The position numbers and the translations under genes are program-made. A DNA stretch of 64,000 nucleotides from Myxococcota bacterium (lineage in GTDB: Bacteria; Myxococcota_A; UBA9042; DTJE01): contig JAGOKF010000012.1 of the NCBI GenBank assembly GCA_017994695.1, forward strand, positions 1 to 64,000. The letters run 5' to 3'. Position 1 is the first letter of the stretch; the number at the start of each line of letters is the position of its first letter. The notes beneath the pieces were generated by a model. The model worked only from the letters and a program-made list of their open reading frames with translations. It made no database searches and was not told the origin of the DNA. Positions 22,621-58,830 of the stretch are shown one piece after another.

Positions 22621-22654
22621 CGGACCCTCTCGTTGAAAGGAGTGAGCCGTTGCC

Positions 22655-24574: not shown

Positions 24575-24653
24575 CGTTTCACCACCTCGTTCCAGAAGGG
24601 GGTCGGCACCCCGTTCCGTTCCCGGGCACGCGCCTCTCTCGAACGGCGCCCCG

Positions 24654-25436: not shown

Positions 25437-25494
25437 GACTGTCCTCGCTGATGGTGTCCGTCCCACGGTGCCCTCCAAGGCCCCGATGAGTCCC

Positions 25495-25514
25495 AAAAGC
25501 ACGGCCCGCCGTGC
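25495..25514 (-). terminator. Terminator-like hairpin after the vWA lipoprotein gene
   Basis: On the minus strand GCACGG-CGGG-CCGTGC is followed at once by TTTT, 20 bases downstream of the vWA gene stop. An overlapping alternative stem (GGCCCGC/GCGGGCC) is also possible. No promoter is evident between it and the barrel gene at 25436, so it may allow partial read-through and set gene ratios. Confidence 0.55.
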
Positions 25515-40280: not shown

Positions 40281-43200
40281 TCAGGAGGACTGGAGGGTTC
40301 CCTCCTCGGCCCCCACGGCCCGACGGAGGGTGAAGTGCTCCTCGGACACCGTGAACCGGACCAGTTCCTCCATGCGTTCCTTCAGGGACAGGCCGCTGAA
40401 GGACACGTCCTCGGCCCGGATGATTTCCAGGGCGACGGGAAGGCTTCCGCAGACCAGCAGTCCGGCCCGAAGGGACGTCAGTTCCAGGCCCTTCACGAAG
40501 TCTCCGTAGATGGCCTCGAAGTCCATCGCCCCCTGCCGCCGGACCAGTTCCCCGACGATCTGGGACATCTGGCTTCTCTGCTGCTGGGGCATCCGCTTCT
40601 CCATCGTCCGGACCAGGGCCAGGATGACCTCGGCGCCGGCCCCGATCTGCATGTCCGGGTAGGCCAGTTTCAGCGCCGCCGCCAGATAGACCTTCACTTC
40701 CGTGCGGGACTTCACCGCCGCCAGGAAGTTCCCGGGCTGGAGGAAGGCCAACTGCCGACCGAGGTGGAAGGCCAGTTCCCGTTCCTCCTTGCCGGTGAGC
40801 ATGTCGGCGCCGACCACCAGGGCGGGGATCGGCGTCAGGAACTCCACCCGGAGCCCCGACGGCTTCTCGTCCCGGTACACCTTGTGGTTCATCGGCGACA
40901 GGGTCTTCGTGACCGCCCGGTAGACCTCGTTGAAGGCCAGTTTCAGGGAGATGTCCAGTTCGTCCTTCTTCCGGAGTCCGATGTCCTTCAGTTCCTTCCC
41001 GCCCAGTTCCGACCCGAGCTGGGTGAAGAACATCGCCAGCAGCCGGGTCACCAGGGGGTTCTGCCGCGGGGACGTCATCTGCGTCTCCCACCGGAGGGCG
41101 TCCAGCCCGACCTTGAACCAGGGAAGGGACGGGTCGAGGTTCTTTTCGAAGAAGTCCCGGTCCTCCTGGTCCGCCCAGCCCATCGCCACCAGGACCGACG
41201 ACACCATGAAGGCCTTGTCCAGGGCCTTCATCTTCTTGAACAGCCGGGCCATCGCCTTGTAGGAGGAGGCGACCTCGGCGCTCAGTGGAGCCAGGGCCAC
41301 GATGGCCCGGTGGGCCTCCAGGGCCTTGTCGAGCTGTTCCTGCCCCTCCTTCTCGAAGAGCTGCGCCAGGATCTCGTGGGTCCGACGGTCCTGGGGCTTC
41401 AGTCTCGCGGCCTCGCCGAAGGCCGTGATCGCATAGTCCGGCTGGTGGAGGCGACTCCGGTAGATCTCTCCCAAGGCGGAGTAGAGCGCAAACTCCAGTT
41501 CCGGGTTGGCCCGGGACTTCAACCGCTCGAGCATCCGCCGGTAGTTCTCCGCCTCGTCCTCCCATTTCCGGGCCCGGGTCAGGATCTCGTCGATCTGCCG
41601 GAAGGCCTCCAGGAATTCCGGATCCTCGTCGAGGGCCTGGTTCAAACACTCGACCGCCTTCAAGTCATCGCCCAGTTTCTCCCGGTAGATGGCGGCCATG
41701 GTCTGGTAGTGGCGTGCCCTCTTCTCGGGGGCGTCCTCGGCCCTGGCCAGCAGTTCCAGCATGTAGAGGGCGTCGTCGATGGATCCGCTGTTCAGGTAGA
41801 TGTCGAACAGCTTGAGCAGGGCCACCTTCGCCTTCGGGTTGACCTCCAGGGCCTCCTTGTAGGCCGCCACGGCCCCGAAGACGTTGCCCAGTTTCTCCCG
41901 GTAGATGTCCCCGCACTCCAGCAGGATGCGGAACCGCTCGAAGGGATCGGCCTTCGCCTCGGCCAGGGCCTGCTTGTGCCGGATCACCGCCGGCCAGTCC
42001 TGCTTCTTTTCGCAGACGGCGATCAACCGCTCCAGGACGGGAATGCGGGTCGGGTCCGCCTCGAGAATCCGTTCCAGGTGACGGATGGCCTCGTCCAACC
42101 GGCCTTCCTCGATGCAGGCCTCGGCCAGGACGTACTGGGCCCCGATCCGCTCGTCGGGGCCCATCATGTCGCCGCCGACCGCCAGGGCCTTTTCGAACTG
42201 GTCCTTCGCCAGGGCCCACAGGCTGCGGTTCGAATAGATGCGACCCAGTCCCAGCAGCGCACCGGGGTTGTTGGGGTTGCTCTTCAGGGCCGCCTGGTAC
42301 TCCCGGAGCGCCCGATCCTGGTCCAGCAGGTGCTCGGCGCAGAGCCCGAGGAGCTGGTGGATCTCGGACAGGCGGGACGCATCCCCCTCGTTCCCGGCAG
42401 AGCCGAGCAGGAACTCCAGCAGGGGCTGCGCCCTCTCCCACTGCTGGGCCTCGGTGTGGGCCCGGGCCAGGAAGAACGAGATCTCGGGAAGCCTGGGATC
42501 CAGTTCCAGGGCCTTCTCGAAGTGCAGGATCGCCGTGTTCCGGTCCTTCAGCCTCTCCAGGTAGATCCGGCCGGCCCAGGCCCGGTGACGGGCCCGTTCC
42601 TCGTCGGTGGTCGCCGCCGCCTCCTGCCGGAGGTGAACCGCCGCCACCTTCTCCCAGTCCCCGAGTTCCTCGTAGATGCCCCGGAGCGTATCGGCGGCCT
42701 CCTCGTTCCCCGGGTCCAGCATCAGCACGTCCTGGAGCATCTTGATGGTGCGGTCCACGTTCTCCAGTTTCCGGTACAGGATCCCGGCAGCCTGGAGCAT
42801 CAGAGAGGCGATCTCCCTCGGCTCCTCGACGTGCTCCTTCCAGCGGATCAGCGTCTGAACCTGCTCCTCGTAGGACTCCATCGCGCCGAACAGTCGCACG
42901 AGTTCCGAGTAGGCGAGCCGGCTGCCTGGGTCGATTTCCAGGATGCGCTGCTGAACCGAAACGGTCGCGTTCAGGTCCTCGAGGTTCCGCTCGTAGACCA
43001 TCGCCAGGCGACGCAGCAGTTCGACCTTCTCGCTCTCCTTCCGCACCTGGGCGATGCGTCCCTCCAGGTGGTTCACGAGGCCGTTCCAGTCCTCGGTCTC
43101 GGCCAGCAGCCGGGCCACGTTCTCGAAGGCCTCGGGATCCTCGGGGTCGAGGTCCCGGAACTGCTGCCAGAATTCGAGGGCCTTCGCCTTGTCGTCCAGC

Positions 43201-46200
43201 AGGTTCTCGTGGAGGATCGCCAGGCGGCTGCAGAACAGCGCCCGGTCGGGCACGCTCTGGGACACGTCCAGCAGGCGCTCGTAGACCTCCGCGAGGCCCT
43301 TCCAGTCCTCCTCCTCGCCGTAGAGGGCCTGGAGCCGATCCAGAGCCTCCTGGTGGGTCGGTTCCAGGTTCGCCACATGGTTCCAGGCCTGGATGGACCG
43401 CCGGTTGTCCCGGAAACGGGTGTCGGCCAGCCGGGCCATCCGGACCCGGATCTCCAGTTCGCTGCCCGGGTCCACCTGGGCGGTCTGATCCAGGACCTTC
43501 CACAGGTCTTCCCATTCCTCCCGCTGCTCGTGGATCCGGGCCAGGGCGGCCAGGGCACCGAGGTTCATCTCGTCCAGTTCCAGGACCTTCCGCCAGGCCT
43601 TCAGGGCCCGTTCCGATCCCAGGGTCTCGGACACCTGGGCCAGTTCGGTCTGGAAGGCGACCTTCTCCAGGAAATCCGGCGTCTTCTCGACCCGGAGGTC
43701 CAGGATCCGGACCAGGTCCTCTCCGCGGCCCATCTGCCGGTACAGGTCCGTCAGGGCCGAAAGGGCCGTTTCGTCCTCCGGGGCGATTCCGAGGGCCTTC
43801 TCGAACACCTCCGCCGCCCGGACCGCCTGCCCGATCTCCCGGGCAATCACGGAACCGCAGCGGACCAGGTGCTCCAGGCGCTGTCCCTCGGGCATCCGGT
43901 CCACCAGATCCAGCACCGAGTCCACGTAGTCCTGCCAGGACCCGGTCGCCTGGGCGATCCTCCACAGTTCCGCCTGGATGTCCTCGTTGCCGGGAGCCAG
44001 GTCCAGGGCCTTCACCAGGATGATGAACGCCGCGGCCTGGTCCTGCTTCTCGACCTCGTAGATCCGGGCCAGTTCCTGGAGGTTCGCCGTCCTCTCCTCG
44101 ACCTCCTGGAGGATCCCGTCCCTGCGGAGCAGGACCTCGGCGAGCCGGTCCCATTCCTTCATGCCCTGGTACAGGAACTGGAGCCTCTGGTTCACCTCCA
44201 GGTCCGCCGGGCGGTAGGCGGCCACCTGCTCCAGCAGCGCGGCCGCACCGGCCGAATCCTGGATCCGGTCCGACAGCATCTCCGCCGCCTTGGACAGCAG
44301 GGCCGCCTTCCCCTCTACCGTCGGTTCCAGGTCCGCGCGGCGCTTCACGATGCCCACGCACTCCTCGATCCGGTTGGTGTCCTCGTAGAGCCTCTCCAGG
44401 GCCTGGAGGGCCTTGGGATCATCCCGGCGCCGTTCCAGCACCCGGTTCCACCAGGCGATGGCCTCCGAAAGCCGTCCCATCTCCTCGGACAGGAGCAGCG
44501 CCTCTTCCTCGCAGTAGGTCGTCTTCTCGGCCTCCGAGACCTCGGGATTTTCGTAGAGGGCCTCCAGCGTCCGGGAAAGTCCCTCCAGGTCCCCCGATTC
44601 CCGGTAGAGCCGCCGGAGGGACAGCAGGGCCTCGACGTCCTGGGGCTGCCGCTCGATGATCCGCCTCCAGGCGGCCTGGGCCCTGTACGAATCGTCCAGG
44701 CGCTCCTCGGCCACCCGGGCGATCTTCCGCAGCAACTCGACGGCCCTGGACTCGGAGGTGACCGGCAGCAGGATCTCCCGCTCGCAGGCATCCAGCAGCC
44801 CTTCCCAGTCCTCCCGGAACGCCAGCAGCCTCTGGAGTTCCTGGAGCGGTTCCGGGTCCTCGACGTCCACGCGGCTGATCTCTTCCCACAGGGCCAGCGC
44901 CCCGGCGGCGTCGCCCAGGTGCTGGTCCGCGATGGCCGCCATCCTCCGCTGGATCACCACCCTCTGGCGGGCGTCGGTGGACAGGTCCGCCAGCGTGGAC
45001 AGCACCCGGAAGAGGTCCCGGTGCTCGTTCCGGAGTTCGTGGAGTTCGGCGAGGGCCTCCAGGGCGGGCAGGAACATGTCGTCCAGCTTCAGCACCGCCC
45101 GGAACGCCTCGACGGCACCGTCCAGGTCCTCCAGGTGATCCCGGAGCACCTTCGCGGCGCGCATCCGGAAGTCGATCTGCTCCTGTAGATAGGGGGCGCT
45201 CAAGGCCTCCCGATCCAGGATTTCCAACAGGTTCGCCCACCGCTGCTCCTGCTGGTACAGCCGATCCAGGGCCGCGAGGGCCTCCCGGTCCTCCTCGTTC
45301 AGTTTCAGAATCCAGAGGCAGACGGCCTCGGCCTGCTGGGAATCCCCCAGGCGCTCCCAGAGAGTCCGGGCAGCCAGGTGCCACAGGTGGATCTTCCGCT
45401 CCTCGTCCTCGGTGTTCCCGGCGGCCGCCAGCAGGATCTTGGCCTGGGTTTCGAATGCCTCCAGGCTCCCCGACAGGTCCAAAATGCGCTGGAGCAGGCT
45501 GTCGTCCGACGGGTCGGCCTCCAGGGCCTTCCCCATCCACTGGAGTGCGGCCTCCCGGTGACCGAGCCGGTCGTGTTCCACGTCGATCAGGTGCAGCAGG
45601 ACCGTCTTCCGGTCCTCTCCCGACAGGTCGCCGAGGACGGTCCGGTACACCTCGGCCAGGTCCTCCCAGGCCTCGGCGGCCTGGTAGGCCGGTTCCAGGA
45701 TCTCCAGGATCTCGCGCCGCAGGTGTCCCTCCTGGAACATCCGCCGCAGCGCTCCCAGCACCTCGGGCCTCCCGGGGGACAGGTAGTGCGCCTCGCTCAG
45801 GGATGCGAAGGCCTGGGGAACCTTCCCCAGGGAGTCCTTCTGCGTGGCGGCCAGCCGGACCAGGAACTCCACCTTCACGTCGGTGGCCCGGGCGGTGTCC
45901 GCCTCCATCCGGATCACGCGCTCCAGGTCCTCGAAGCGCCCGAGATCCTGGTAGATGCGGTCCAGCCGGGCCAGGGCCTCGACGTGGTCCGGATGGTCCT
46001 CGACGATGGCCTCCAGGGTGGCGGCCGCCGCCACCGGGTCCTGGAGTCGATCCTTCTGGATCTCCGCCGCATGAAGCCTCAAGGCCAGCGCTTCCTCGAC
46101 GTTCGGCTGGGCCCGGGCGGCTTCCAGCAACAGTGGAGGCACGTTCTCCCAGTGGGAGAAGGACTCCGCCAGCGCCTCGACCTTCTCCAGGGCCTCCTTC

Positions 46201-49200
46201 CGGGACGGCATCCCGACGAAGGCCCTCCCGTAGCATTCGAAGGCCGTGAGGGGACGCTCGAGGCGATGCTCGGCGATCCCCCCCATCACCATCCAGTTCT
46301 CCACCTGGATGACCGGGTCCTCCTCCCGCTCGGTGATCACCTCGTAGATGACGTAGAGCCGGTCCCAGTCCGCCCGCTGCTCCAGTTCCGGGGCGAGGAC
46401 CGCGAAGGCGTGCATCGCCGCGAGGTCGGAACGGATCATCCGTTCCAGGGCCGTGACCGCGTCCAGGTCCCCGGGATGGTCCCGGAGGATTCCCTGGTAC
46501 ACCTCGACCGCCCGGTCATGCTCCTCGAGCCGCTGTTCCAGCAGTTCCCCGATGCGGAGTCGGAGGCCTTTCCGTTCCCCGTCCTCCACCACCGACGACA
46601 GTTCCTCCAGGACCTCCAGCAGGCTCGGGAAGTCCTCGACCGCGGTGTAGAGGCGATCCAGCATCCGCAACGCGTGGACGTCCCCGGGACGGAGGGAGAG
46701 GACCTCCCGGAACGTCTCGATGGAATCGTTCGCAGCCTCCAGGCGCTCCCACTGGACCAGGCCCTTCTGCTTCAGGGCATCGATCTTCCCTTCGGCGTCG
46801 GAAGCGTAGTCCGCCTTCCGCTGCAGCAGTTCCACGAGGTCTTCGTAGCGTTCCAGGGCCTGGTAGATCTCCTCGAGGGCGGCGATGGCCTCGGCATTTC
46901 CCGGATCCTCGTCCAGGGCCGCCGAGAAGGTCCCGATGGCCGCGGGGAGTTCCTTCAGTTCCCGGGCCTGGAGGTTCCCTGCCTCCAGCAGCAGGGCCAC
47001 CCGCTCCGCCGGGTCGGACAGGAGGTCATGCTTCTGGAGGATCCTGGACACCCAGGCGGCGATCTCCCCGTCCTCCCGGTGCAACTGGATCAGGGCGTCC
47101 AGGGCCGCGAGGTCCCCTTCGTCCATGGCCAGGACCGCGGCGAAATGCCGCTTCGCAAGGCCGCGCTGGCCCGACTCCCGGGCTTCCCGGGCGATGACCC
47201 GATGGATCTCCCTCTTCCGGACGGGGTCGTCGATCTCCTCCACCTTGCCGCAGAGGAGTTCGATGGCCGAGTCCACCGCGCCCATCTGCCGGGAGACCCG
47301 CAGCAGTTCGTTCACCAGGTCTTCCCGGGAGGGGGCCTCCTGGAAGGCCCGGGCCCAGACCTGGAAGGCCCGCGCGGAATCGCCGATCCGCTCCTCCAGG
47401 ATGGAGGCCATCGTCCGATACTGGGAAATCCGTTCCTCGGGGTCGCTCTCCGCCGCGAGGATCACCTCCCGGACGGCCACCTCCTGCTCCCGCTTCTTCT
47501 GCGCCTCGTAGGAGGGCAGCAGGATCCCCGCCACCGTCACGCGGACCTCGGGATTCTCGAACAGCCGTTCCAGCTGCCGGACGGCCTCCTCGTGCGCCGG
47601 GTCCTCGGCCAGGATCTCCCGGTACACCTCCACGGCCTCTGGGAGGTTCTCCAGTTTCTCTTCCATCACCTCCGCGAGCCGGAGCCGGAGATCGTTCCGC
47701 TCCGCCATCTCGACCGCAAGGCGGATCCGCTCCCGGATCACCGTCGCCAGGTCGTACCAGCGCTCGGCCTGGATGTAGAGGCTGTCGAGTCGCCTCCACG
47801 CCGCGACGCTCTCGGGCTCCCAGGCGAGAATCTGACGGACCGTGACGATGGCGCCCTCGACATCGTCCATCCGCTCGGCGAGTTCCGTGGCCACCTTGAA
47901 GGCGTAGTCGATCTTCTCCCCGACGTACGGCGACACGTCCATTCGCCACCGGTAGATGCGGAGCAGTTCCGGGTGGTTCTTCTCCTCCTCGTAGATGGTC
48001 TCCAGGGCCTCGAGAGCCTCCACGTTGCCCCGGTCCAGGTCCAGCACCTGGGAATAGAAGTGCTTCGCCCGCTCGACCTGGAACAGCCTCTGGTAGTACA
48101 ACCGGCTCAGCCGGGTCAGCAGGTCCACCCGGACGCCGGCCTCGGCCAGCCCGTCCAGTCCGCGTGTCCACAGGTTGGCCAGTTCCATCCAGGCATCCAG
48201 CGAGGAGGCGACCTCCTCCAGCTGGTCCCAGCATTCCCGGCGCGTCGGGTCCACCTGGAAGATCCGGGCCAGCAGCCGGAATCGCCGCCCGTTGTCGGGG
48301 ACCTCCGTGGCATAGAGTGCGTTCAACTGCTCCAGGATCCCGAGGGTCTCGGTGCTGTCCCCCCGGTGGCGCAGCTCGATTTCCAGCAGGTCCGCGAGGT
48401 CCGCCTTCCGCCCCATCCTCTCAAAGGGGCCCTTCAGCAGTTCCACCAGCCTGGGCTGGAGGTCGTCGATGCCCAGCAGTCCTTCCAGGAATTCCACCGC
48501 CTCGGGGTAATCCGGAACCTGTTCCAGCGCCCGGGCCAACCCCTCGACGACCTCCTCTCCCGGTCCGTCGATCCCGGCCGTCAGGATCGCCACTCGGGTG
48601 TGCAGATCGGCCAGCACCGCGGGCTCGCCTTCCCCCTGGGCCTGGAGCACCTCCAACTGCCTCGCCAGGAGCCGTCGGAGCGCCTCGAACCGCCTCTCCT
48701 TCAGCAGCAGGGCTCCCAGGTCCTCGCAGGCCACCCGATCCAGCGGATCGCCGTCCAGGATCTGCTGGTAGGCCCGGATGGCCTCGTCCACGCGCCCGAG
48801 TCTCTGGTACAGGATCCGGGCGATCTCGAGCCGGACCTCCCGGATTTCGTGTGCCCGCCGTTCCAGCGGGAGCCGGCGGTTCAGCACGTCGACCAGTTCC
48901 GCCCAGCGCTGGTGGGCCCGGTACAGGGCCTCCAGGGACTCGATGGCCTTCCGGTGGCCCGGGTCGATGGAAAGGACCTTCTGGAACGCGGCCTGGGCCT
49001 GTTCCATGTTGCCCAGGTGCTCGTTGTAGATCTCCCCGGCCCGGAGCCAGGCCTGCACCTTCCGTTCCGGCTCGTCCAGGATCTCCGCGGCCTGCTCCAG
49101 GACCGCCGCGAATGTCTCCCAGTTGTCGGTTGGGCCGGCCAGGCGCTCGAGCTGCTGCCGAAGGGAATCTTCCCGGAGATCCTCCTTGTAGGCCTCCAGG

Positions 49201-51041
49201 TAGTGGAAGAAGGCCCTCTCGGGGTTCGACAGGTGCTTTTCCTGGACCTCGGCCGCCTCGATCAACCACTGGCGATGCTGGGCCGCATCGCGGGTATTCG
49301 CGATGGCCACTTCGTACACCGCCGGGAGGTTCCGCCACGCCGAGAGTTCCCGGTACAGCAGGATCAGTTCCGAGGCCGCCCGGAGGTCGTTCGGAAGCAG
49401 GGCCAGCACCTGCTCGAGAACCTTCACCGCCCGCACGGGCTGCCGCAGTTCATCCCTCCAGACCGCGGCGGTCTTCAGCAGCAGGGCCCTCCGCTCCACC
49501 GGGTCCTCGACGTTGGACGCCTGGCCCTCGAGGGTCCGTGCCAGTTCCTCCACCGTGCCATAGGTCCGAAGGAACCATTCCAGGTCCTCCCACCGCCGGT
49601 CGGCGAGGTACCGGGTCCGAAGTTCCCGCTTCGCCCGCTCGTGATTCGGCTGGATGTCCAGGATCCGCCTCCAGATCGCCGTGGCACCGGCCGCATCCTG
49701 GATCCGGGTCCCCTTCAGCAGCGCCAGCCTCTCCAGCAGCGCCACCTGATCCGCGGGGGCCGAGGCCTTCTCGACCCGGGCCGCCAGCACGCGCGCCTGA
49801 TCCTCGTATCGCTTCTCGCGCTCGTAGAGTCCGTCCAGGGCCTGGAGCGCCTCGTCATGGTCGGGTTCCAGGTCCAGGACCTGCTCCCAGAACTCGATGG
49901 CGAGGGGGAACTTCCGAAGGCGCTCGGTCGCCGTGACGGCCAGTTCCCGGTAGATGGCGGCCCGTTCCGCCGGGTCCGCCAGGCGCTCGGCCTCCCGCTT
50001 CCGCAGGCGCAGCAGCGAGTCGAAATCCCGTCGCCTCTCGTACAGGTCCCTCAGCCGGTCGGCGATGTCCTTCCGTTCCGGATCGGTGTCGAGGATGGTC
50101 TCGAGGCAAGCGATGGCCTCGGGGAACTTCGCCAGCCGGGTCTCCAGCAGATGGGCCTGCTGTTCCAGCAGCGCCACCCGTTCGGAGGCGTCCTGGACGA
50201 CCTCGATCTTCCGCCCGAGGACCTTCACGTAGTCGGGCCACCGACCGCCGGCCTCGTACCGGGTCAGCAGGGCGTCCATCGCCTCCATGCATCGCGGGTC
50301 CGTGTCCAGCATGGCCTGGTAGGTCGCCATCACCTTCGGCTCGGCCCGCATCCGCTGGTCGTAGATCTCCACCAGGCGTCGGAGGATGGCCATCCGTTCC
50401 TCGCGGGCATCCTCCGGGAGCGCCTTCAGTCGCTTCTGGAGCAGGTCGGCCAGGGACGGCCACCGCTCCAGCCGGGTGTACAGCCTCTCCAGTTCGCGAT
50501 CGGCCTCGGGGTCCCCCGGCACCGCCTCGTGGACCGCCTGCCAGTAGGACAGTTCCTTGGAAGGGTTGTTGAATTCGGACGCGGTGCGGGCCAGCAGGCG
50601 CCGGATCTCGGCCGCGGGGGTTCCCTGTCGGGCCCCGGCCTCCTCCAGGAACTGCTCCAGGCGCATCCAGTTTCCGCGGGAGGCGTAGAAGGTCCGGTAG
50701 AACTCCATCCACTCCCCGGGATGATCCCCGCCGTGCTCCATGGCCCGGAAATAAACCTCGGCCTTCACCAGGTCCCCCATGCCCTTCCAGGCCAGAAGGC
50801 CCGCGGGCCAGGCCAGGCGGGACTCCCAGGGACTGTTGCGATGGCGACGGAACTGGGCGTCCAGGACCCGGAGGACCGCCTCCCGGGCCTCCTGGGTCCG
50901 CAACCCCTCCACCAGCGTCTCCAGCAAGGCGATTGCCCGTCCGGGATCTTCCTCCGCGATCGCCTGTTGCAGGACCTCTTCCAAGAGGGCTGCGCGGCTG
51001 GGATCATCGTGGATCTGCTGGAGCAGTTCGTTCCCTTCCAT
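40281..51041 (-). CDS. Giant TPR protein of 3,586 residues (AgmK/GltI-like)
   Basis: One continuous frame of 10.8 kb. After about 240 residues the chain falls into regular units: the D-x-x-P phrase recurs at 246, 318, 390 and 462, exactly 72 residues apart, each unit being two TPR-like helix pairs with a D-x-x-P, L-Y, R-W/F and E-R pattern. Unit length drifts later (one near 462 is 85), and repeats fill the protein to about 3220. The last 360 residues form a different domain (EERELAFHLGRQLAFLQPGNFL), reminiscent of a degenerate metallopeptidase-like fold without HExxH. There is no signal peptide, so it is cytoplasmic unless exported unusually. Size and build recall Myxococcus AgmK/GltI. AAGGAG lies before ATG 51041. 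Confidence 0.9.
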   Translation of the reverse strand: MEGNELLQQIHDDPSRAALLEEVLQQAIAEEDPGRAIALLETLVEGLRTQEAREAVLRVLDAQFRRHRNSPWESRLAWPAGLLAWKGMGDLVKAEVYFRAMEHGGDHPGEWMEFYRTFYASRGNWMRLEQFLEEAGARQGTPAAEIRRLLARTASEFNNPSKELSYWQAVHEAVPGDPEADRELERLYTRLERWPSLADLLQKRLKALPEDAREERMAILRRLVEIYDQRMRAEPKVMATYQAMLDTDPRCMEAMDALLTRYEAGGRWPDYVKVLGRKIEVVQDASERVALLEQQAHLLETRLAKFPEAIACLETILDTDPERKDIADRLRDLYERRRDFDSLLRLRKREAERLADPAERAAIYRELAVTATERLRKFPLAIEFWEQVLDLEPDHDEALQALDGLYEREKRYEDQARVLAARVEKASAPADQVALLERLALLKGTRIQDAAGATAIWRRILDIQPNHERAKRELRTRYLADRRWEDLEWFLRTYGTVEELARTLEGQASNVEDPVERRALLLKTAAVWRDELRQPVRAVKVLEQVLALLPNDLRAASELILLYRELSAWRNLPAVYEVAIANTRDAAQHRQWLIEAAEVQEKHLSNPERAFFHYLEAYKEDLREDSLRQQLERLAGPTDNWETFAAVLEQAAEILDEPERKVQAWLRAGEIYNEHLGNMEQAQAAFQKVLSIDPGHRKAIESLEALYRAHQRWAELVDVLNRRLPLERRAHEIREVRLEIARILYQRLGRVDEAIRAYQQILDGDPLDRVACEDLGALLLKERRFEALRRLLARQLEVLQAQGEGEPAVLADLHTRVAILTAGIDGPGEEVVEGLARALEQVPDYPEAVEFLEGLLGIDDLQPRLVELLKGPFERMGRKADLADLLEIELRHRGDSTETLGILEQLNALYATEVPDNGRRFRLLARIFQVDPTRRECWDQLEEVASSLDAWMELANLWTRGLDGLAEAGVRVDLLTRLSRLYYQRLFQVERAKHFYSQVLDLDRGNVEALEALETIYEEEKNHPELLRIYRWRMDVSPYVGEKIDYAFKVATELAERMDDVEGAIVTVRQILAWEPESVAAWRRLDSLYIQAERWYDLATVIRERIRLAVEMAERNDLRLRLAEVMEEKLENLPEAVEVYREILAEDPAHEEAVRQLERLFENPEVRVTVAGILLPSYEAQKKREQEVAVREVILAAESDPEERISQYRTMASILEERIGDSARAFQVWARAFQEAPSREDLVNELLRVSRQMGAVDSAIELLCGKVEEIDDPVRKREIHRVIAREARESGQRGLAKRHFAAVLAMDEGDLAALDALIQLHREDGEIAAWVSRILQKHDLLSDPAERVALLLEAGNLQARELKELPAAIGTFSAALDEDPGNAEAIAALEEIYQALERYEDLVELLQRKADYASDAEGKIDALKQKGLVQWERLEAANDSIETFREVLSLRPGDVHALRMLDRLYTAVEDFPSLLEVLEELSSVVEDGERKGLRLRIGELLEQRLEEHDRAVEVYQGILRDHPGDLDAVTALERMIRSDLAAMHAFAVLAPELEQRADWDRLYVIYEVITEREEDPVIQVENWMVMGGIAEHRLERPLTAFECYGRAFVGMPSRKEALEKVEALAESFSHWENVPPLLLEAARAQPNVEEALALRLHAAEIQKDRLQDPVAAAATLEAIVEDHPDHVEALARLDRIYQDLGRFEDLERVIRMEADTARATDVKVEFLVRLAATQKDSLGKVPQAFASLSEAHYLSPGRPEVLGALRRMFQEGHLRREILEILEPAYQAAEAWEDLAEVYRTVLGDLSGEDRKTVLLHLIDVEHDRLGHREAALQWMGKALEADPSDDSLLQRILDLSGSLEAFETQAKILLAAAGNTEDEERKIHLWHLAARTLWERLGDSQQAEAVCLWILKLNEEDREALAALDRLYQQEQRWANLLEILDREALSAPYLQEQIDFRMRAAKVLRDHLEDLDGAVEAFRAVLKLDDMFLPALEALAELHELRNEHRDLFRVLSTLADLSTDARQRVVIQRRMAAIADQHLGDAAGALALWEEISRVDVEDPEPLQELQRLLAFREDWEGLLDACEREILLPVTSESRAVELLRKIARVAEERLDDSYRAQAAWRRIIERQPQDVEALLSLRRLYRESGDLEGLSRTLEALYENPEVSEAEKTTYCEEEALLLSEEMGRLSEAIAWWNRVLERRRDDPKALQALERLYEDTNRIEECVGIVKRRADLEPTVEGKAALLSKAAEMLSDRIQDSAGAAALLEQVAAYRPADLEVNQRLQFLYQGMKEWDRLAEVLLRRDGILQEVEERTANLQELARIYEVEKQDQAAAFIILVKALDLAPGNEDIQAELWRIAQATGSWQDYVDSVLDLVDRMPEGQRLEHLVRCGSVIAREIGQAVRAAEVFEKALGIAPEDETALSALTDLYRQMGRGEDLVRILDLRVEKTPDFLEKVAFQTELAQVSETLGSERALKAWRKVLELDEMNLGALAALARIHEQREEWEDLWKVLDQTAQVDPGSELEIRVRMARLADTRFRDNRRSIQAWNHVANLEPTHQEALDRLQALYGEEEDWKGLAEVYERLLDVSQSVPDRALFCSRLAILHENLLDDKAKALEFWQQFRDLDPEDPEAFENVARLLAETEDWNGLVNHLEGRIAQVRKESEKVELLRRLAMVYERNLEDLNATVSVQQRILEIDPGSRLAYSELVRLFGAMESYEEQVQTLIRWKEHVEEPREIASLMLQAAGILYRKLENVDRTIKMLQDVLMLDPGNEEAADTLRGIYEELGDWEKVAAVHLRQEAAATTDEERARHRAWAGRIYLERLKDRNTAILHFEKALELDPRLPEISFFLARAHTEAQQWERAQPLLEFLLGSAGNEGDASRLSEIHQLLGLCAEHLLDQDRALREYQAALKSNPNNPGALLGLGRIYSNRSLWALAKDQFEKALAVGGDMMGPDERIGAQYVLAEACIEEGRLDEAIRHLERILEADPTRIPVLERLIAVCEKKQDWPAVIRHKQALAEAKADPFERFRILLECGDIYREKLGNVFGAVAAYKEALEVNPKAKVALLKLFDIYLNSGSIDDALYMLELLARAEDAPEKRARHYQTMAAIYREKLGDDLKAVECLNQALDEDPEFLEAFRQIDEILTRARKWEDEAENYRRMLERLKSRANPELEFALYSALGEIYRSRLHQPDYAITAFGEAARLKPQDRRTHEILAQLFEKEGQEQLDKALEAHRAIVALAPLSAEVASSYKAMARLFKKMKALDKAFMVSSVLVAMGWADQEDRDFFEKNLDPSLPWFKVGLDALRWETQMTSPRQNPLVTRLLAMFFTQLGSELGGKELKDIGLRKKDELDISLKLAFNEVYRAVTKTLSPMNHKVYRDEKPSGLRVEFLTPIPALVVGADMLTGKEERELAFHLGRQLAFLQPGNFLAAVKSRTEVKVYLAAALKLAYPDMQIGAGAEVILALVRTMEKRMPQQQRSQMSQIVGELVRRQGAMDFEAIYGDFVKGLELTSLRAGLLVCGSLPVALEIIRAEDVSFSGLSLKERMEELVRFTVSEEHFTLRRAVGAEEGTLQSS

Positions 51042-51196: not shown

Positions 51197-53344
51197 TCAG
51201 GGAGCGACGGCGAATTCGAGGGTCGCCTCATCGCTGAAGAAGGCCAGGCGGCTGTCGTTGTCGTAGGAGAAGACGACCAGCCGGAAGCCGTAGGTCCCCG
51301 GGACGTCGGGGATGAAGGACACCTGGGCGGGTCCCGGCCCGGGATTCACGAAGATCTTGCTGTTCGCAGGCTTGCGGTCCATGAACCACAGGTAGCCGCC
51401 CTGGGCGGGAATCGAGTAGGTCCCTCCAAGGCTGCCCCCGGCGTCCAGGACCTCGGCCTGGCCGACCCTGGCCCCGGCGTGGTCCGCGGCGGTTCCGGGA
51501 TTCGCCGTCGGCAGCGTGACGTCCTTCACGTTGGTCCACCCGATCAGGTTCACGGTCTCCCGCAACGTGCCGGTCGAGAAGGGGTCCTGGTAGTCGATAT
51601 GGAGGAAGCCGTTCAGGACGATGACCCCCGTCTCCTCGGTGATCTCGTACACCGTGCCGTCGAACTCCACCGTCAGTGGCAGAAGGCCGTTGGGGGCCAG
51701 TTCCAGCGCCGCGCCCGTTGGCGGATCGACAAGGCGGAAGGCCTCGGGGTCCACTCCGGGGTTCTGGGGGGCCACGGCGAATCCCTTCAGGTGGAGCACG
51801 TCGTTGCCCCGGTTGGCCAGCACGACGGTCTTCCGGGCCTTGCCGGTGGGCGGCATCGCGAACATCGTCACGTTGGTGACCCTGGGAGGCGGCGCGGTCT
51901 CCAGTTCGCCTTTCCGGAACCCGGCGCAGATGGGAACCCGCTCCTCTCCCGCATAAGGGGCGTTGTAGGACACGACCAGTTGCCCGTTCGGGTCGTTGCT
52001 CCCGGTCACCGTGTAGGTCACGGCGACCTTCACCGGGGAGTTCTGTTCCGTCAGGCTGAACCGGGGTTCGGTGATGGCCGTCCCGGTGACCGGTCCACAT
52101 TCCTCGCTCTGGGTGGCCCCGAGTCGATACCACTCGACGGCGTACGGACTGGACTTGCCCTCCGGGACGGTCACCTGGGGTTTCGACAGGACCACCAGCC
52201 CGGGTCCCTCGGCCCTCAGGTCCACCAGTTTCGTGCAGAAGGTGCCCGGCTCGGTCACCCGGGTGAAGTCGATGCACCCGGTCAGGTAGTCCCCGTACCC
52301 GATCTTCAACTGGCCGGGCTTCACGTCCCCCTTCAACCGGATCCGGGCCTTCTGGGGCTTCCGGCAGACCCCCGTCAGGCACCGGTAGTCGGCAGCGTCC
52401 GCCTCCCCCGCGAACCACGCCTGGCAGTCGCCGTCCTTCAGGCACATGCAGCGACCGTTGCCGCAGGAATACGGGCACGCCCCCTGACCGCCGACGCAGA
52501 GTTTCTGGTCGTTCCGGCAGGTGGATTCCTGGTTGCAGGAAACCCCCGTGTCCCGGACCGCGTCCCACTCGATGACCAGGTACTCCTCGTCGGGGGGATT
52601 CTGGGGCGTGTACTCCACGCGCAGCGTGACCGACTCCTTGCCGCTCCCGGTGCCCACCGGGTCGATCCGTGTGTCGCGGTTGGGCTCGCCCCCGAGGAAG
52701 CGGTAGGCCTTGCTCCCGGTCTCGAAATAGACCTTTGCGAGGGCCAGCGGCGCCAGGCCGGTGTTGGTCACGACGAAGTCCTGGTTGTCCGGCTGGGAGG
52801 CCGTCGCGTTCAGGAAGGTGTAGTTCGGAGGATTGACGGTCAGTTCCGGCACCTTTTCCTGGGGGGCGAAACGCATCGTGAAGACGCCTTCCAGGTAGGT
52901 GTCGTCGTTCGTGTAGAGGCGGATCTCCGTGGCCGAGTCATCGGGCTGGGATCCCGGGGTGAAGTGGACCGACAGGCGCAGCGGCGTGGGCTCGGTCGCC
53001 TGGAACTCCCCCGGGGTGATCCTCCGTGGGAACGAGATTCCGACCAGGTTGGGCTGGACGTCCATCTGGGAGTTGACGTGGACCAGTTCCACCCGGTCCA
53101 GCACCAGTTCCGCATCGCCGGTGTTGCCGATCACCAGCTGGATCGCCCCGCCACCCGGGGCGAAGACCAGGGTCTCCCCGTCCTGGACCGACGAGACCGG
53201 CGACAGCAGCGCGCCGGTGGCCGTGACATAGAGGGATGGGGACGGTGTGCTGCTCGCCCGCTGGCAGGATGCCGCCAGCATCGCGGCCCCGACCGCCGCC
53301 ATGATTCCCCAGTGACCCGTTCCGAACCGTCGCCGAACCATCAT
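51197..53344 (-). CDS. HYDIN-type lipoprotein with cysteine module and PKD-like end
   Basis: A 715-residue lipoprotein (LAASC, Cys27). Residues 50-260 hold two Ig-like repeats of the ASPM/SPD-2/HYDIN or choice-of-anchor type (GNTGDAELVLDRVEL, TNTGLAPLALAKVYF). A cysteine-rich module follows at 270-327 (C270, C276, C283, C290, C294, C299, C301, C307, C322, C327). Further beta-sandwich domains lead to a PKD-like C-terminus (WFMDRKPANSKIFV, FIPDVPGTYGFRLVVFSYDND). It is predicted to sit on the outer membrane surface or in the periplasm. The first six cysteines of the module recur in the neighbouring vWA lipoprotein. GGAGG precedes ATG 53344. Third gene of the HYDIN operon, 59 bases after the second. 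Confidence 0.84.
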   Translation of the reverse strand: MMVRRRFGTGHWGIMAAVGAAMLAASCQRASSTPSPSLYVTATGALLSPVSSVQDGETLVFAPGGGAIQLVIGNTGDAELVLDRVELVHVNSQMDVQPNLVGISFPRRITPGEFQATEPTPLRLSVHFTPGSQPDDSATEIRLYTNDDTYLEGVFTMRFAPQEKVPELTVNPPNYTFLNATASQPDNQDFVVTNTGLAPLALAKVYFETGSKAYRFLGGEPNRDTRIDPVGTGSGKESVTLRVEYTPQNPPDEEYLVIEWDAVRDTGVSCNQESTCRNDQKLCVGGQGACPYSCGNGRCMCLKDGDCQAWFAGEADAADYRCLTGVCRKPQKARIRLKGDVKPGQLKIGYGDYLTGCIDFTRVTEPGTFCTKLVDLRAEGPGLVVLSKPQVTVPEGKSSPYAVEWYRLGATQSEECGPVTGTAITEPRFSLTEQNSPVKVAVTYTVTGSNDPNGQLVVSYNAPYAGEERVPICAGFRKGELETAPPPRVTNVTMFAMPPTGKARKTVVLANRGNDVLHLKGFAVAPQNPGVDPEAFRLVDPPTGAALELAPNGLLPLTVEFDGTVYEITEETGVIVLNGFLHIDYQDPFSTGTLRETVNLIGWTNVKDVTLPTANPGTAADHAGARVGQAEVLDAGGSLGGTYSIPAQGGYLWFMDRKPANSKIFVNPGPGPAQVSFIPDVPGTYGFRLVVFSYDNDSRLAFFSDEATLEFAVAP

Positions 53345-53403
53345 GTTCCTCCTTCCGGTGCCTTCGGATCCTTCCCGGGATGTGGCTCCCCCCTCCCTTC
53401 CGG

Positions 53404-56400
53404 TCAGGAAGTGAGGCAGAGGGTCTCGTAGTCGATCACCACGTCGTCTCCCGGCTGGGGCATGCAGGGCCCCTGGTCGTCGAAGATGACGCTGTTGGAC
53501 GGCGCATCGTACGTCCACCCGCTGCTGCAGGCGGCCCCCTTCACCTTCACGGTGACCGTCGCCGGGTCGGCAAGGCGCGACAAGTAGAACTGGACCTTCA
53601 GCCCGAAGGCCTGCGCTCCGATCTGGTTCATTACCGTCGCGAAGTTCGGGTCGCAGATGCTTCCCTTCTTGCCTCCCGTCTGGTCCGCCACCTCGAGGTA
53701 GCGCTTCCCGACCTCGGCGCTGGTGGAACCGTCGGGGCTGGAGCACGTCTGGTCGCCGGGTTTCGCGGGCATCCCGACGATCACGTTGACGTGCATCATG
53801 TTCACGTTGTAGTACCCCTTGATGTTCTTGAAGAAATCGATGTAGTAGGACGGCGCGCCGTTGGACTGGTCCTCCTCGTCGGACAGGACGATGATCTCCA
53901 GCTGGGCGTCCTTCCGCAGGAAGGACTTGTTGAACCCGCCGCAGGTCCCCTCGACGCAGAGGTACGGGCAGCCCGTCGGGGAGGCGCAGAGGCTCTTGTC
54001 GTTCCGGCACTGGTCGTCGCTGGTGCAGGCGATGCCCGTGTCGGAGATCAGCGGCGCAGAGAGGGCGGCCTCCGCGGCCTGGAGTGCCGCCTCCTGGGAG
54101 TCGGACCCGCCGTCGCATCCCAGCTTTGCCAGCCGTTGGAACTGGCTCTGGGCCTGGGCATTGGGCGTGATGAAGCGGGGCGTGATGGTCTTGTTTCCCC
54201 GGTTCAGGCGGCCCTTCACGTTGTCGTTGGTCACCATCGTGCTGATGACTCCGATGTGGTAGTCGTTGTTCCAGATCGTGGACTGCTGGATGAACTCCGC
54301 GAAGTTCGACACCAGGCGGTCCTGCTCCTCACACATGGACCCGGAGTCGTCGATCACGAAGAGGATGTCCACCTCCTGCCCGGACACCTGCTTGAATCGG
54401 TCCGTCTGGTGGGTCTCGTAGGTCCCCGTGCCCGACAGCGCGACGTTCAGCGACGGCAGGCTCTGGTCGTTGCTGGAAATCTGCATCACGCACTCGTCCC
54501 GGCCCTCGTCCTGGGGCGCGTAGGCCACCTCGAAGCAGAAGGGCACGTTGGGGGCCACCTGTCTCGGAAGGCCGGGGACGTTCTTCTTCTTGAACTCCGG
54601 CGTGCATCCCTGGAACCTGATGTCCGTGACCTCCAGGGCGACGCTGCCCGTGTTGTACACACAGGCCCTCTGGGCCTTCGACCAGCAGCCGACCGTGACC
54701 AGGCCGAATTCCATCGTGTCGGGGATCACCTTGACCCGCGCGATGCCTCCGGTGCCGGTGAGGTTCGGGTTGTAGGTCGCGCCGCCGGCCCCGGTTCCCG
54801 CCGGGACCACGATGTCGTTCTTGTTGTTGGCGTCGTACGCCTTGATCCAGAGGAGCGCCGAGTAGGTCGTCAGTTCCCCGAAGACCGAGGCCACGTTCCG
54901 GGGAATGAACCGGATCCGGATAGGCACCGAGGCTCCCTGGGGGATCCCGTTCAGCGTCGCGGCTGGGAGCCCCGCGAACTGGAAGATCGACGAGGGGCCG
55001 ACGGATCCGGGGGCCTGGCAGACCACCGGCATCCCGGCGAATCCGACGCAGTCCTCGATCCTCGCCTGCTTGAAACTGCAGGGTCCGCTGCCGACGTTCA
55101 CCAGGTTGATGGGAAGCTCCCTGTAGAAGCCCTCGGCGACCGTCCCGAAGTTCAGGCTGGCCGGCATCAGCTGGACCTTGCACTCGGGGGACCCGGAACG
55201 GGTGACGTTCATCGGGACGGCGATCCTCCCGTTCCCGGGGCTGTTGGATGTGATAACCAGTTTCGCGCTGTCGGACCCCACGGCGGGGCCCTTGTTCAGG
55301 AAGGTCACCACGAGCGGAGCGGCGCTGTTTCCCGGCAGCGTCCAGCCGCTCCCGGACTGGTACTGGGAATCCATCTGGAAGGACCATTCAGCGCCATGGC
55401 TCGTGACGCTGATGTCCTCGATGGTGATGGACGAGATCTCGAGGGGGCCGTGACCGTCGTTCCGAAGCGTCACGGTCCTCGAGGAGGTCTGGTTCTGGGG
55501 AGCGAATCCCAGGTCCACCACGTCCGGCACCACGGTCAGGTAGGGCGCGTCCACCCGCCCGAACACCGGGATCAGAGTCGGGCTCGTGCTGTCGTTGGAG
55601 TTCACCGCGATGGCCCCGATGGGGTCGGCCCCGGCGGGCTTCGGGTCGTCGGCGGTCCACTCGACGTGGTACTCCACGCTCCGCCCCGTGGGCACGACGA
55701 CCTCCTGGTCGGGGGCGTCGGTGATGCGAAGCGTCGCATCGCCTCCCGGGGGGACGTAGATGCCCTGGATGCGGAGGTCGGCGTTCCCCTCGTTGCTGAT
55801 CATCAGCAACTGGGTCCGGGTCTCGTCCAGGGGAACCCACCCGAAGTCGATGACACCGGGGTATGCGATGAGCCGAGGCCCCAGTTCCGTTCCCAGGAGG
55901 TCGTAGGACCATCGCCCGGTCTCCCCGCGGCTTTCCCCTTCGACCACCAGCCGTCCCAGGTCGTCGTTTCCCCCCTTCGGCTCGTATCGGACCACCAGTC
56001 CGATCTCCTGGTTCGGCTCGAGCCGGAACGGCAGCACGCTCCCCTCGGGAAGAACCACCGCCTCCAGTCGGAAGTCCGGGCTGCCCTCGGGGTCGAGGTA
56101 GATGGTCCGCAATTCCACCGCGTCGGACCCGACGTTGCGCAGCAGGACGTCCTGGGCCAGGGAGTCCCCGGCCAGGACCTCGCCGAAGTCCACGGGACTG
56201 GGGATCGCGATCAGGTCCGCGAACTGCCCGTTGGCCGTGATGGGGATCCGGGTCTCCGACAGCGGGGGGACGTTGTGACGAATCACCACCGTGCCCCCGT
56301 CGTCCTGGCTGTCCAGGGGGGAGTAGGTGACGGTCACGGTCGTCTCCTCCCCCGGGGCCAGGGATGTCGTCCCCGGCTCGGTGACCTGGAACTCGGTGCT

Positions 56401-56631
56401 CCGGCTCTCGATGCGGACCGATTCGATCTGGATCACGCCCGAGGTGCCCACGTGGCGCATCACCAGGGTCCGGGTCGCCGAGGTCTGGATCGGAACGGTC
56501 CCGAAGTCCAGGGACGGCGGGGTCACCAACAGGTTGAGGTCGTCCGCGGCCTGTCCGCCTTCCCGGCAGGAACATCCGGGGTTCAGGGCGATCGCCCATG
56601 CCACCATCATCCATCCGATCCGCCTGGCCAT
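53404..56631 (-). CDS. HYDIN-repeat and vWA-domain lipoprotein
   Basis: A 1,075-residue lipoprotein (NPGC, Cys20). Six Ig-like HYDIN/choice-of-anchor repeats begin near residues 40, 145, 255, 375, 500 and 645, each marked by a D-F-G-x-V phrase and an N-x-G turn. A vWA domain follows at about 752-1040 with the MIDAS DDSGS (761-765), and a short beta-rich end. The vWA domain carries an insert at 869-897 with six cysteines spaced x5-x6-x5-x3-x4, the same pattern as in the gene at 51197. vWA domains bind protein ligands through metal, so an adhesin or envelope assembly role is likely but unproven. Very good AAGGAGG before ATG 56631; 46 bases after the first operon gene. Confidence 0.88.
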   Translation of the reverse strand: MARRIGWMMVAWAIALNPGCSCREGGQAADDLNLLVTPPSLDFGTVPIQTSATRTLVMRHVGTSGVIQIESVRIESRSTEFQVTEPGTTSLAPGEETTVTVTYSPLDSQDDGGTVVIRHNVPPLSETRIPITANGQFADLIAIPSPVDFGEVLAGDSLAQDVLLRNVGSDAVELRTIYLDPEGSPDFRLEAVVLPEGSVLPFRLEPNQEIGLVVRYEPKGGNDDLGRLVVEGESRGETGRWSYDLLGTELGPRLIAYPGVIDFGWVPLDETRTQLLMISNEGNADLRIQGIYVPPGGDATLRITDAPDQEVVVPTGRSVEYHVEWTADDPKPAGADPIGAIAVNSNDSTSPTLIPVFGRVDAPYLTVVPDVVDLGFAPQNQTSSRTVTLRNDGHGPLEISSITIEDISVTSHGAEWSFQMDSQYQSGSGWTLPGNSAAPLVVTFLNKGPAVGSDSAKLVITSNSPGNGRIAVPMNVTRSGSPECKVQLMPASLNFGTVAEGFYRELPINLVNVGSGPCSFKQARIEDCVGFAGMPVVCQAPGSVGPSSIFQFAGLPAATLNGIPQGASVPIRIRFIPRNVASVFGELTTYSALLWIKAYDANNKNDIVVPAGTGAGGATYNPNLTGTGGIARVKVIPDTMEFGLVTVGCWSKAQRACVYNTGSVALEVTDIRFQGCTPEFKKKNVPGLPRQVAPNVPFCFEVAYAPQDEGRDECVMQISSNDQSLPSLNVALSGTGTYETHQTDRFKQVSGQEVDILFVIDDSGSMCEEQDRLVSNFAEFIQQSTIWNNDYHIGVISTMVTNDNVKGRLNRGNKTITPRFITPNAQAQSQFQRLAKLGCDGGSDSQEAALQAAEAALSAPLISDTGIACTSDDQCRNDKSLCASPTGCPYLCVEGTCGGFNKSFLRKDAQLEIIVLSDEEDQSNGAPSYYIDFFKNIKGYYNVNMMHVNVIVGMPAKPGDQTCSSPDGSTSAEVGKRYLEVADQTGGKKGSICDPNFATVMNQIGAQAFGLKVQFYLSRLADPATVTVKVKGAACSSGWTYDAPSNSVIFDDQGPCMPQPGDDVVIDYETLCLTS

Positions 56632-56677: not shown

Positions 56678-58792
56678 CTACGGCTGTCCGCAGGATCCGC
56701 CCCCGACCACGACGAAGGCCGGGTCCATGTAGTTGGAGGTGATCTTCAGGCTCCCGTCGGGCTTCTGGACGGCTTCCACGCGCCCTGAGGGCCAGGAGAT
56801 CGTGGCCGCCTCCCAGAAGTCGCACTTGTACATCTTGCGCCCCATCGCCTTCAGATCCCGGTCGAAGACCAGCTGCCCCAGGATGTAGCACTTCAGCCGG
56901 GGGTAGCTGAACCCGAACCCGTGGTCGTCCCAGTAGTGGACGCCGACCCGGTACACCCGGTTGTTGGCCGGCTGGTCCAGGTTCAGGTTCTCGGGGCCCG
57001 CCCCGTCCGTGTCGTCCCGGTCCAGGGAGGGATTGTCCGGGATGTTGGGGTTCACGCTCTCCCACTCGGGATTCCGGTTGTACCAGAAGCAGTCGTAGGG
57101 GATGTCGAACCAGGGATCCGGCTTCCCGTCGCCGTCCAGGTCCGACCGGCTCGCGAAGGGATGGGCGAAGTGCAGGTCCATGTCGGCCCCGGCGTCCTCC
57201 CCGTCGTCGAACTGGTCCGGGTCCCCCGGGGTGTCCCAGGTCAGTTCGCAGTGGATGGCTTGGTCCGGGACCACCGTGACCTCCACGCAGGCGGTGGTGT
57301 TGCACTGGGGATCCGACGAGCAGAACTGTGCGTCGCAGACGTCGAGGCAGTACTTGTAGGTGCCACCGACGTTCACCTCGTGGATCGGCTGGTCGAAGTT
57401 CGCGGCCGGGACGAAGGCGAACTTGTTGTCCGGAGGCTGTTCGACGGTCCAGGAATATCGGGTGATGCTGCCGCTGGCCGGCTCGGAGTTCTCGCCGTGG
57501 AGGTGCAGGCGAGTCTGGGGCCGGACCTCCTCCCCTTCCTCGATCTGGATGACGGGCATGGGGCATTCCACCTCGACCCCGAAGCCGGTCACCGGGACCT
57601 GGGTCACCGGGTTGAAGGCGTTGCTCTGGATCAGGACCAGGCCGGTATCGGGATCGGGCACCCCGTTCACGACGGGGTTCTTGACGTCCGGCGTGAAGAC
57701 GACCGTGAAGGTCGCCGTGTCGTTCGGCTGGAGTACCAGCGGGGACTCGGGAGAGGGGGCGACCTGCCCGGGCAGACTGTCGTACCGCAGGGAGAAGTCC
57801 GGGCTGCTGTCCGGGGTCTTCATTCCGATGCCCGTGAGGACCAGCGGCTCGGTGCCCACGGACCGGACCACGACGTCCACCGCGGCGGACCTGCCGATCA
57901 CCTTCCCGCCGAACTGGACCTCCGGCGGCTCGACCCGGATCCGGGGCCCGGTGCTGTTCCCCACCAGGGCGACCTCCCGGAGCCCGTCCGGGAGATCGGC
58001 CTCGTTGGTGTGGAGGGTCAGGGTGGCCCGTGCGGGCTCGCCGTCCTTCGGCGAGAAGGTGCTGGTCCAGGTGATGCCCGTGTTGGAATCGATTTCCAGC
58101 GGCGGGTTCAGGTCCAGTTTCTGTCCCGGCTCCATCGGGCGCAGCAGCACGCCGCCTCCCAGGTCCACCTCGAAGACGTCGTCCCCGACCAGGGCCACCC
58201 AGTCGATGATGAGCCGGCAGGACCCGACGTTGGTCAGCTGGAACTCCTCCGTGCGGGACCCCTGGTCCATCGTCACGAGCAGGAAGTCCACCGTCGCAGG
58301 CACCTGGAGTGTCGGGTCGCAGGCCCGGGTCGAGAAGACGATCTTCAGTTCGCGGCGGGAGGCCTCGGTGTCGTTGTCGTTGAAGATGGTGATCGTGGCG
58401 GTCCGCTGGAGATTGTCCCCCTGGGGATGGAACCGAACCACGAACGTGAAGGTTTCCGGTCCCGTGCCCTCCCCCTGGGGATGGACCTCGGCCGGGAGCG
58501 CCGGGTGTTCCAGTTCGAAGGCGGGCTGGCCCGCGGCCTCGGCTTCGGTGGCGGGGGAGTAGTCCAGCAGGATCTCCTGGAGATTCAGGACCTTTCCCTG
58601 TCCGGTGTTCCGGATCACGACCGGGTATTCCAGCAGGATCGAGGAGTCGATCTCCACGGCCAGTTGCGGCGGATCGATCTCGATGGTCGAATTGGACCGG
58701 ACCTGGCCCGAGTCCTTCTTGCATCCGGCGATCAGGACGAATGCGGAGGCGACCATCCAGGCCACGGTTCTGGAATTCCTGATCCGCCTCAT
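56678..58792 (-). CDS. HYDIN-type lipoprotein with PKD-like and YfaP-like domains
   Basis: A 704-residue lipoprotein (LIAGC, Cys24). Three Ig-like repeats (about 40-155, 165-280, 288-405) of the HYDIN/choice-of-anchor class are followed by a PKD-like domain (411-508: ITRYSWTVEQPPDNKFAF, GGTYKYCLDVCD). The C-terminal domain (515-704) has a DMDLHFAHP segment, a DLDGDGKPDP calcium-binding-like loop and a GAGPENLNLDQP segment, resembling the DUF2135/YfaP type. Ten or so cysteines cluster at 482-515. First gene of the HYDIN operon, with an excellent promoter (58831-58859) and AGGAGG before ATG 58792. A surface-exposed structural or binding role is inferred. Confidence 0.84.
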   Translation of the reverse strand: MRRIRNSRTVAWMVASAFVLIAGCKKDSGQVRSNSTIEIDPPQLAVEIDSSILLEYPVVIRNTGQGKVLNLQEILLDYSPATEAEAAGQPAFELEHPALPAEVHPQGEGTGPETFTFVVRFHPQGDNLQRTATITIFNDNDTEASRRELKIVFSTRACDPTLQVPATVDFLLVTMDQGSRTEEFQLTNVGSCRLIIDWVALVGDDVFEVDLGGGVLLRPMEPGQKLDLNPPLEIDSNTGITWTSTFSPKDGEPARATLTLHTNEADLPDGLREVALVGNSTGPRIRVEPPEVQFGGKVIGRSAAVDVVVRSVGTEPLVLTGIGMKTPDSSPDFSLRYDSLPGQVAPSPESPLVLQPNDTATFTVVFTPDVKNPVVNGVPDPDTGLVLIQSNAFNPVTQVPVTGFGVEVECPMPVIQIEEGEEVRPQTRLHLHGENSEPASGSITRYSWTVEQPPDNKFAFVPAANFDQPIHEVNVGGTYKYCLDVCDAQFCSSDPQCNTTACVEVTVVPDQAIHCELTWDTPGDPDQFDDGEDAGADMDLHFAHPFASRSDLDGDGKPDPWFDIPYDCFWYNRNPEWESVNPNIPDNPSLDRDDTDGAGPENLNLDQPANNRVYRVGVHYWDDHGFGFSYPRLKCYILGQLVFDRDLKAMGRKMYKCDFWEAATISWPSGRVEAVQKPDGSLKITSNYMDPAFVVVGGGSCGQP

Positions 58793-58830
58793 CGGGAAAA
58801 CCTCCTGCGGATTCCACGTCAAGACAGGGG

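Follow-up and report, generated by a model that had tools for sequence, protein, structure and literature searches.

Two neighbouring genes in a 64,000-nt stretch of a Myxococcota genome (this entire stretch is referred to as the window) code for lipoprotein-like proteins of the HYDIN type, termed A and B, and each of them contains a short segment with six cysteines at matching distances. This raises the questions of whether the two segments represent one homologous module, how such a module came to reside in two unrelated folds, and what it may do there. The relevant features of the two proteins are as follows.

51197-53344, minus strand: protein A, 715 aa, lipoprotein-like, with HYDIN/ASH Ig-like domains
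52328-52849, minus strand: approximate Ig-like domain 2 of A, whose last two strands flank the insert (from a low-confidence model and knob-less homologues)
52448-52537, minus strand: six-Cys knob copy 1 of A, residues 270-299, in the F-G loop of Ig-like domain 2
52364-52444, minus strand: knob copy 2 of A, residues 301-327, with four cysteines in the window (CLKDGDCQAWFAGEADAADYRCLTGVC)
53404-56631, minus strand: protein B, 1075 aa, with a signal/lipobox-like N-terminus, a HYDIN/choice-of-anchor-D Ig array and a C-terminal vWA domain (MIDAS-adhesin-like)
53941-54027, minus strand: six-Cys knob of B, C-x5-C-x6-C-x5-C-x3-C-x4-C, residues 869-897
54337-54351, minus strand: MIDAS DxSxS motif of B, DDSGS, residues 761-765 (recognized in the sequence)
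53869-53883, minus strand: SDEED of B, residues 917-921 (recognized in the sequence)

Relatedness of the two cysteine modules

The cysteines of the module are located at residues 270, 276, 283, 290, 294, and 299 of A, as counted from the Met at 53344 (the start of the protein, rather than that of the longer ORF at 54118), and at residues 869, 875, 882, 888, 892, and 897 of B, exactly as given in the initial annotation. Their agreeing spacing is real, and the corresponding regular expression matches only these two places in all six frames of the window. Beyond the cysteines, the copies have DTG[VI] before Cys1, LC, CPYxC, and GxC in common. With the cysteines held fixed, 10 of the 29 aligned non-Cys positions are identical, which is reached by 7 of 200,000 shuffles, while within the core alone 152 of 200,000 shuffles equal the observed number of 7 identities. 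A profile composed only of vWA inserts, containing no A sequence, retrieves copy 1 of A with an E-value of 2e-7, compared to 0.62 for the best reversed ORF decoy, and a profile-profile comparison of copy 1 with the vWA inserts yields a probability of 98.6%. Because of these shuffle, profile, and profile-profile values, the possibility of a chance-level alignment beyond the cysteines, which had been raised together with the initial proposal, does not hold, and the view that both of these adjacent HYDIN lipoprotein-like proteins contain the same homologous module is supported.

Insertion sites in the vWA and Ig-like domains

Protein B is a member of the HYDIN/choice-of-anchor-D arrays, as indicated by the profile values of its Ig array, which exceed the cut-off (PF22544, 1.3e-26; choice_anch_D, 2.3e-45). 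Its C-terminal domain shows the general features of a vWA/MIDAS domain, with DDSGS being followed in the right order by the acidic SDEED, which presumably provides the acidic residues of MIDAS loop 3, as judged from the sequence and from what is known of vWA domains. A MIDAS-adhesin profile spans residues 753-1036, and the Pfam VWA models match below their cut-off only. The module had been described as lying inside this domain, which is confirmed by its position between a vWA helix (after GGSDSQ) and the strand leading into LEIIVLSDEED. In the vWA fold, the helix-to-strand loop belongs to the base of the domain, opposite the MIDAS, and the knob of B would accordingly project from this base and face away from the MIDAS. 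This placement relies on general vWA topology, because the AlphaFold model of the domain (based on 4 sequences) has a pLDDT of 36 and is taken for secondary structure only.

Paralogues of B in the same genome are found on contigs C97, C112 (six cysteines), and C156 (four cysteines). The B paralogues at loci L024, L054, and L084 keep the six-Cys knob with SKADD replacing SDEED, and the one at L024 has also lost the DxSxS motif; thus, the knob has been retained even where the MIDAS is no longer intact. The gene for another cysteine-rich protein, P0006 (L024:5383-7116, on G000:C112), is situated immediately upstream of one of the B paralogues; this protein contains about 75 cysteines in 577 residues, arranged in short C-x5-C repeats.

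In the case of protein A, the HYDIN/choice-of-anchor-D profile remains below its cut-off, and the fold search agrees with the assignment, returning HYDIN-like ciliary central-pair proteins and the SPD-2 domain of CEP192. The module of A had been thought to sit between Ig-like domains, but this needs correction: it is located inside Ig-like domain 2, in the F-G loop, because the AlphaFold model (pLDDT 55 overall and about 62-78 over the insert), which served only for strand placement, puts the insert between two strands that belong to the same Ig-like domain, and the fold search identifies domains of the HYDIN/SPD-2 types. Knob-less homologues of A have a short SNDP-type loop at the same site (SNDPTAPSVG in G110). 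Copy 1 is directly adjoined by copy 2, forming a tandem pair, and copy 2 contains six cysteines in 7 of the 9 knob-bearing A proteins. It aligns to the B inserts with a profile-profile probability of 94.8%, compared to 34% (hhalign) for copy 1, and because of this weak alignment to copy 1 and the better one to B, copy 2 may have originated separately.

History of the insert and its gene context

The vWA profile matches 129 of the 284 genomes of the phylum, and the state of the insertion site is graded across the Myxococcota, ranging from no insert in some relatives (ALSEPLASNENKGFMRDDAKLAI) via four-Cys inserts in many families (C-x5-C-x5-C-x4-CGG) to the six-Cys form. The latter is confined to the order of the window genome, where it is present in 14 of 14 genomes, and an insert in B is retained in nearly all members of the class. 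The 72 distinct inserts parsed, which are not phylogenetically independent, consist of 37 with six and 35 with four cysteines, and none has an odd number. Moreover, Cys3 and Cys4 are jointly absent from copy 2 of A in the window and in its nearest relative, from the paralogue on C156, and from the family-wide four-Cys forms. Cys3 and Cys4 probably form a disulphide, since they are absent together and the cysteine counts are always even. A separate third cystine has arisen independently in the same vWA insert in two genomes of family f7 (L135 and L137), following the pattern C-x-C-x6-C-x3-C-x7-C-x4-C.

A profile search for the module, as recommended in the initial annotation, matches only B-type vWA proteins (35), A proteins (9), and one contig-end fragment in the 14 genomes of the order. 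All nine A proteins with a knob group together in a single clade (support 99/99), and the module was thus gained once in A. Homologues of A without the insert occur in five genomes of the order (G110, G234, G065, G206, and G106) as well as in other families of the class. The A copy shows a non-Cys identity of 0.32 to the adjacent B type versus 0.25 to other B paralogues, and it most likely derives from B, as suggested by an alignment of 37 columns, which does not suffice for a firm tree of the module. Gene conversion between A and B within the same genome was considered and rejected, as there is no excess A-B identity within genomes.

Two further genes belong to the immediate context of A and B.

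56678-58822, minus strand: protein C, a HYDIN-type lipoprotein without knob, encoded by the first gene of a conserved C-B-A cassette
40281-51041, minus strand: giant TPR protein, 3586 aa, adjoining A in the family of the window genome

The gene order C-B-A is conserved throughout the class, being found in relatives from the same family and in genomes of families f3, f4, and f7, and predates the gain of the knob by A. Placement of the giant TPR gene after A is, among the loci examined, restricted to the window genome's own family. Genome G026 (locus L071 on G026:C75) represents a natural case of B loss with the order C-A-TPR, in which B has disappeared from between C and A, both knobs of A are kept, and B paralogues remain elsewhere in the genome. 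At this locus, there is now an overlap of a few codons between the open frames of C and A.

Relation to known families and possible role of the module

The initial annotation named no known domain with this pattern, and indeed no Pfam or NCBIfam model matches the window copies better than chance, and a sequence search of the PDB returned no match for them. None of them reaches the curated gathering scores of Pfam EB, Dickkopf_N, Squash, or WAP. Their four-Cys relatives share the half pattern C-x5-C-x5-C-x4-C with Dickkopf_N, EB, and DUF7107, which are eukaryotic families, and approach these models and TIGR04201, but stay below all cut-offs (24.0 bits for one insert with Dickkopf_N, against a cut-off of 25); the six-Cys window copies match none of the three eukaryotic families. 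TIGR04201 (Myxo_Cys_RPT) represents the cysteine repeats of TraA (PMC3325183), which likewise are short myxobacterial cysteine repeats. It requires a 22-residue repeat with more than 25 bits, which the window knobs do not attain; the four-Cys vWA inserts reach E-values of 0.004-0.01, below the cut-off, whereas the six-Cys window copies give no match in hmmscan, and the six places found with TIGR04201 across the whole genome all lie outside the window knobs. A fair reading of these sequence comparisons places the ancestral four-Cys form among the common short cystine-rich motifs and regards the six-Cys form as an unnamed derivative.

As to the host proteins, B scores 56.4 bits (E 2.8e-15) with the MIDAS family adhesin model NF052240 and 39.5 bits (E 1.6e-10) with the CglD model NF033765, compared to curated cut-offs of 700 and 400 bits, respectively, and is related to the NF052240 adhesins without being a member. 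It resembles the MIDAS-family adhesins of Bdellovibrio (Bd0875) and CglD of Myxococcus in presenting a vWA/MIDAS domain in a cysteine-containing lipoprotein, and differs from Bd0875 in its long HYDIN array, which takes the place of a small beta domain. An extra insert has been described in the MIDAS domain of Bd0875 (the cap, aa 143-176; PMC11003981). The identity of this cap with the knob of B was considered and rejected: the two are different insertions, because the cap corresponds to a position close to B residue 839, ahead of the helix, whereas the knob (869-897) follows it. HYDIN/ASH/SPD-2 Ig-like domains provide the scaffold of both A and B, but an F-G loop with inserted cysteines does not belong to the features of that family. 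A literature search for choice-of-anchor-D lipoproteins in Myxococcota returned no report.

The explanation that we regard as reasonably probable describes the module as a small loop stapled by disulphides, which probably become oxidised outside the cytoplasm, and as a stabilising or contact element. Its origin would lie in B, an old lipoprotein of the Myxococcota, where it would have appeared with four cysteines in the vWA domain, in the stretch that joins the helix behind the MIDAS loop to strand 4; a third cystine (Cys3-Cys4) would have been acquired in the order of the window genome. Later, the neighbouring gene A would have received a single copy in the F-G loop of one of its Ig-like domains, a site that also contains a second knob unit. 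Forming a stiff projection of the surface that is locked by covalent bonds, the module would most likely stabilise or space its host domain and provide a face for contacts opposite the MIDAS of the vWA domain. Of these points, homology, distribution, the sequence of events in A, and the joint variation of Cys3 and Cys4 are shown by the data, and the cysteine pairing, B as donor, the position at the vWA base, and the function are inferred. The module is probably structural, an unnamed element with a putative binding role.

Outside its cysteines, the insert of A shows lower conservation than the scaffold in 36 of 36 pairs, and dN/dS between the window and G036 is about 0.33 for the insert versus about 0.10 for the scaffold, so the A copy is retained but variable around a fixed cysteine frame; the B insert gives a value of about 0.03, from one pair with few sites. 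A tolerated loop insertion without any function of its own would fit the relaxed state of the A copy and the loss of a cystine from copy 2 in the window lineage, but is quite unlikely in view of the copy 1 cysteines, which are invariant in 9 of 9 A proteins, a dN/dS of the A insert still well below 1, and the retention and low dN/dS of the insert in B. Docking, in which the knobs would mediate binding of A to B, or of both to a common partner, in one surface complex, agrees with the adjacency of both genes in a conserved cassette, with the single entry of the module into A and its persistence in all nine descendants, and with its occurrence in no other kind of protein within the order. Nevertheless, a dedicated A-B dock is not favoured and appears unlikely, because the B insert is older than that of A and many genomes with it have a knob-less A, because G026 keeps the knobs of A without a neighbouring B (though B paralogues remain), and because the knobs of A are variable; in addition, the residues common to A and B mostly adjoin cysteines.

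Separate recruitment of common four-Cys repeats of myxobacterial secreted proteins into A and B would be in line with the richness of the genome in similar repeats (P0006 and the TIGR04201 matches elsewhere), with the different third cystine of family f7, and with the weak resemblance of copy 2 to copy 1. It is very improbable, however, in view of the identical six-Cys spacing, the common residues around the cysteines, and the results of the vWA-only profile (2e-7) and the shuffles (7 of 200,000). A more far-reaching reading, which we consider rather improbable, regards the module as a portable unnamed disulphide cassette, transplanted from the vWA domain to the Ig F-G loop like a knottin grafted onto an antibody loop, by which A would have gained a binding surface matched to the adhesin B.

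The proposed copying of a stapled loop from B to A represents a datable move of a small disulphide element from one fold to an unrelated one, vWA and Ig, encoded by adjacent genes. The empty state is preserved in sister lineages, so that natural protein pairs allow direct tests of how the third cystine arose and of whether binding was gained. A family definition is suggested for the unannotated and widespread vWA insert of the Myxococcota.

Elsewhere in the window, a block at 17795-25502 (minus strand) codes for GltE-like (1.7e-29) and GltC-like (5.6e-53) TPR proteins, both below the respective cut-offs, and an OMP_myx_plus beta-barrel, and possibly represents a gliding-type envelope apparatus. 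It is followed at 25535-27394 (minus strand) by the gene for another vWA-type lipoprotein-like protein (DQSGSM), the C-terminal tail of which is also rich in cysteines, with a different spacing.
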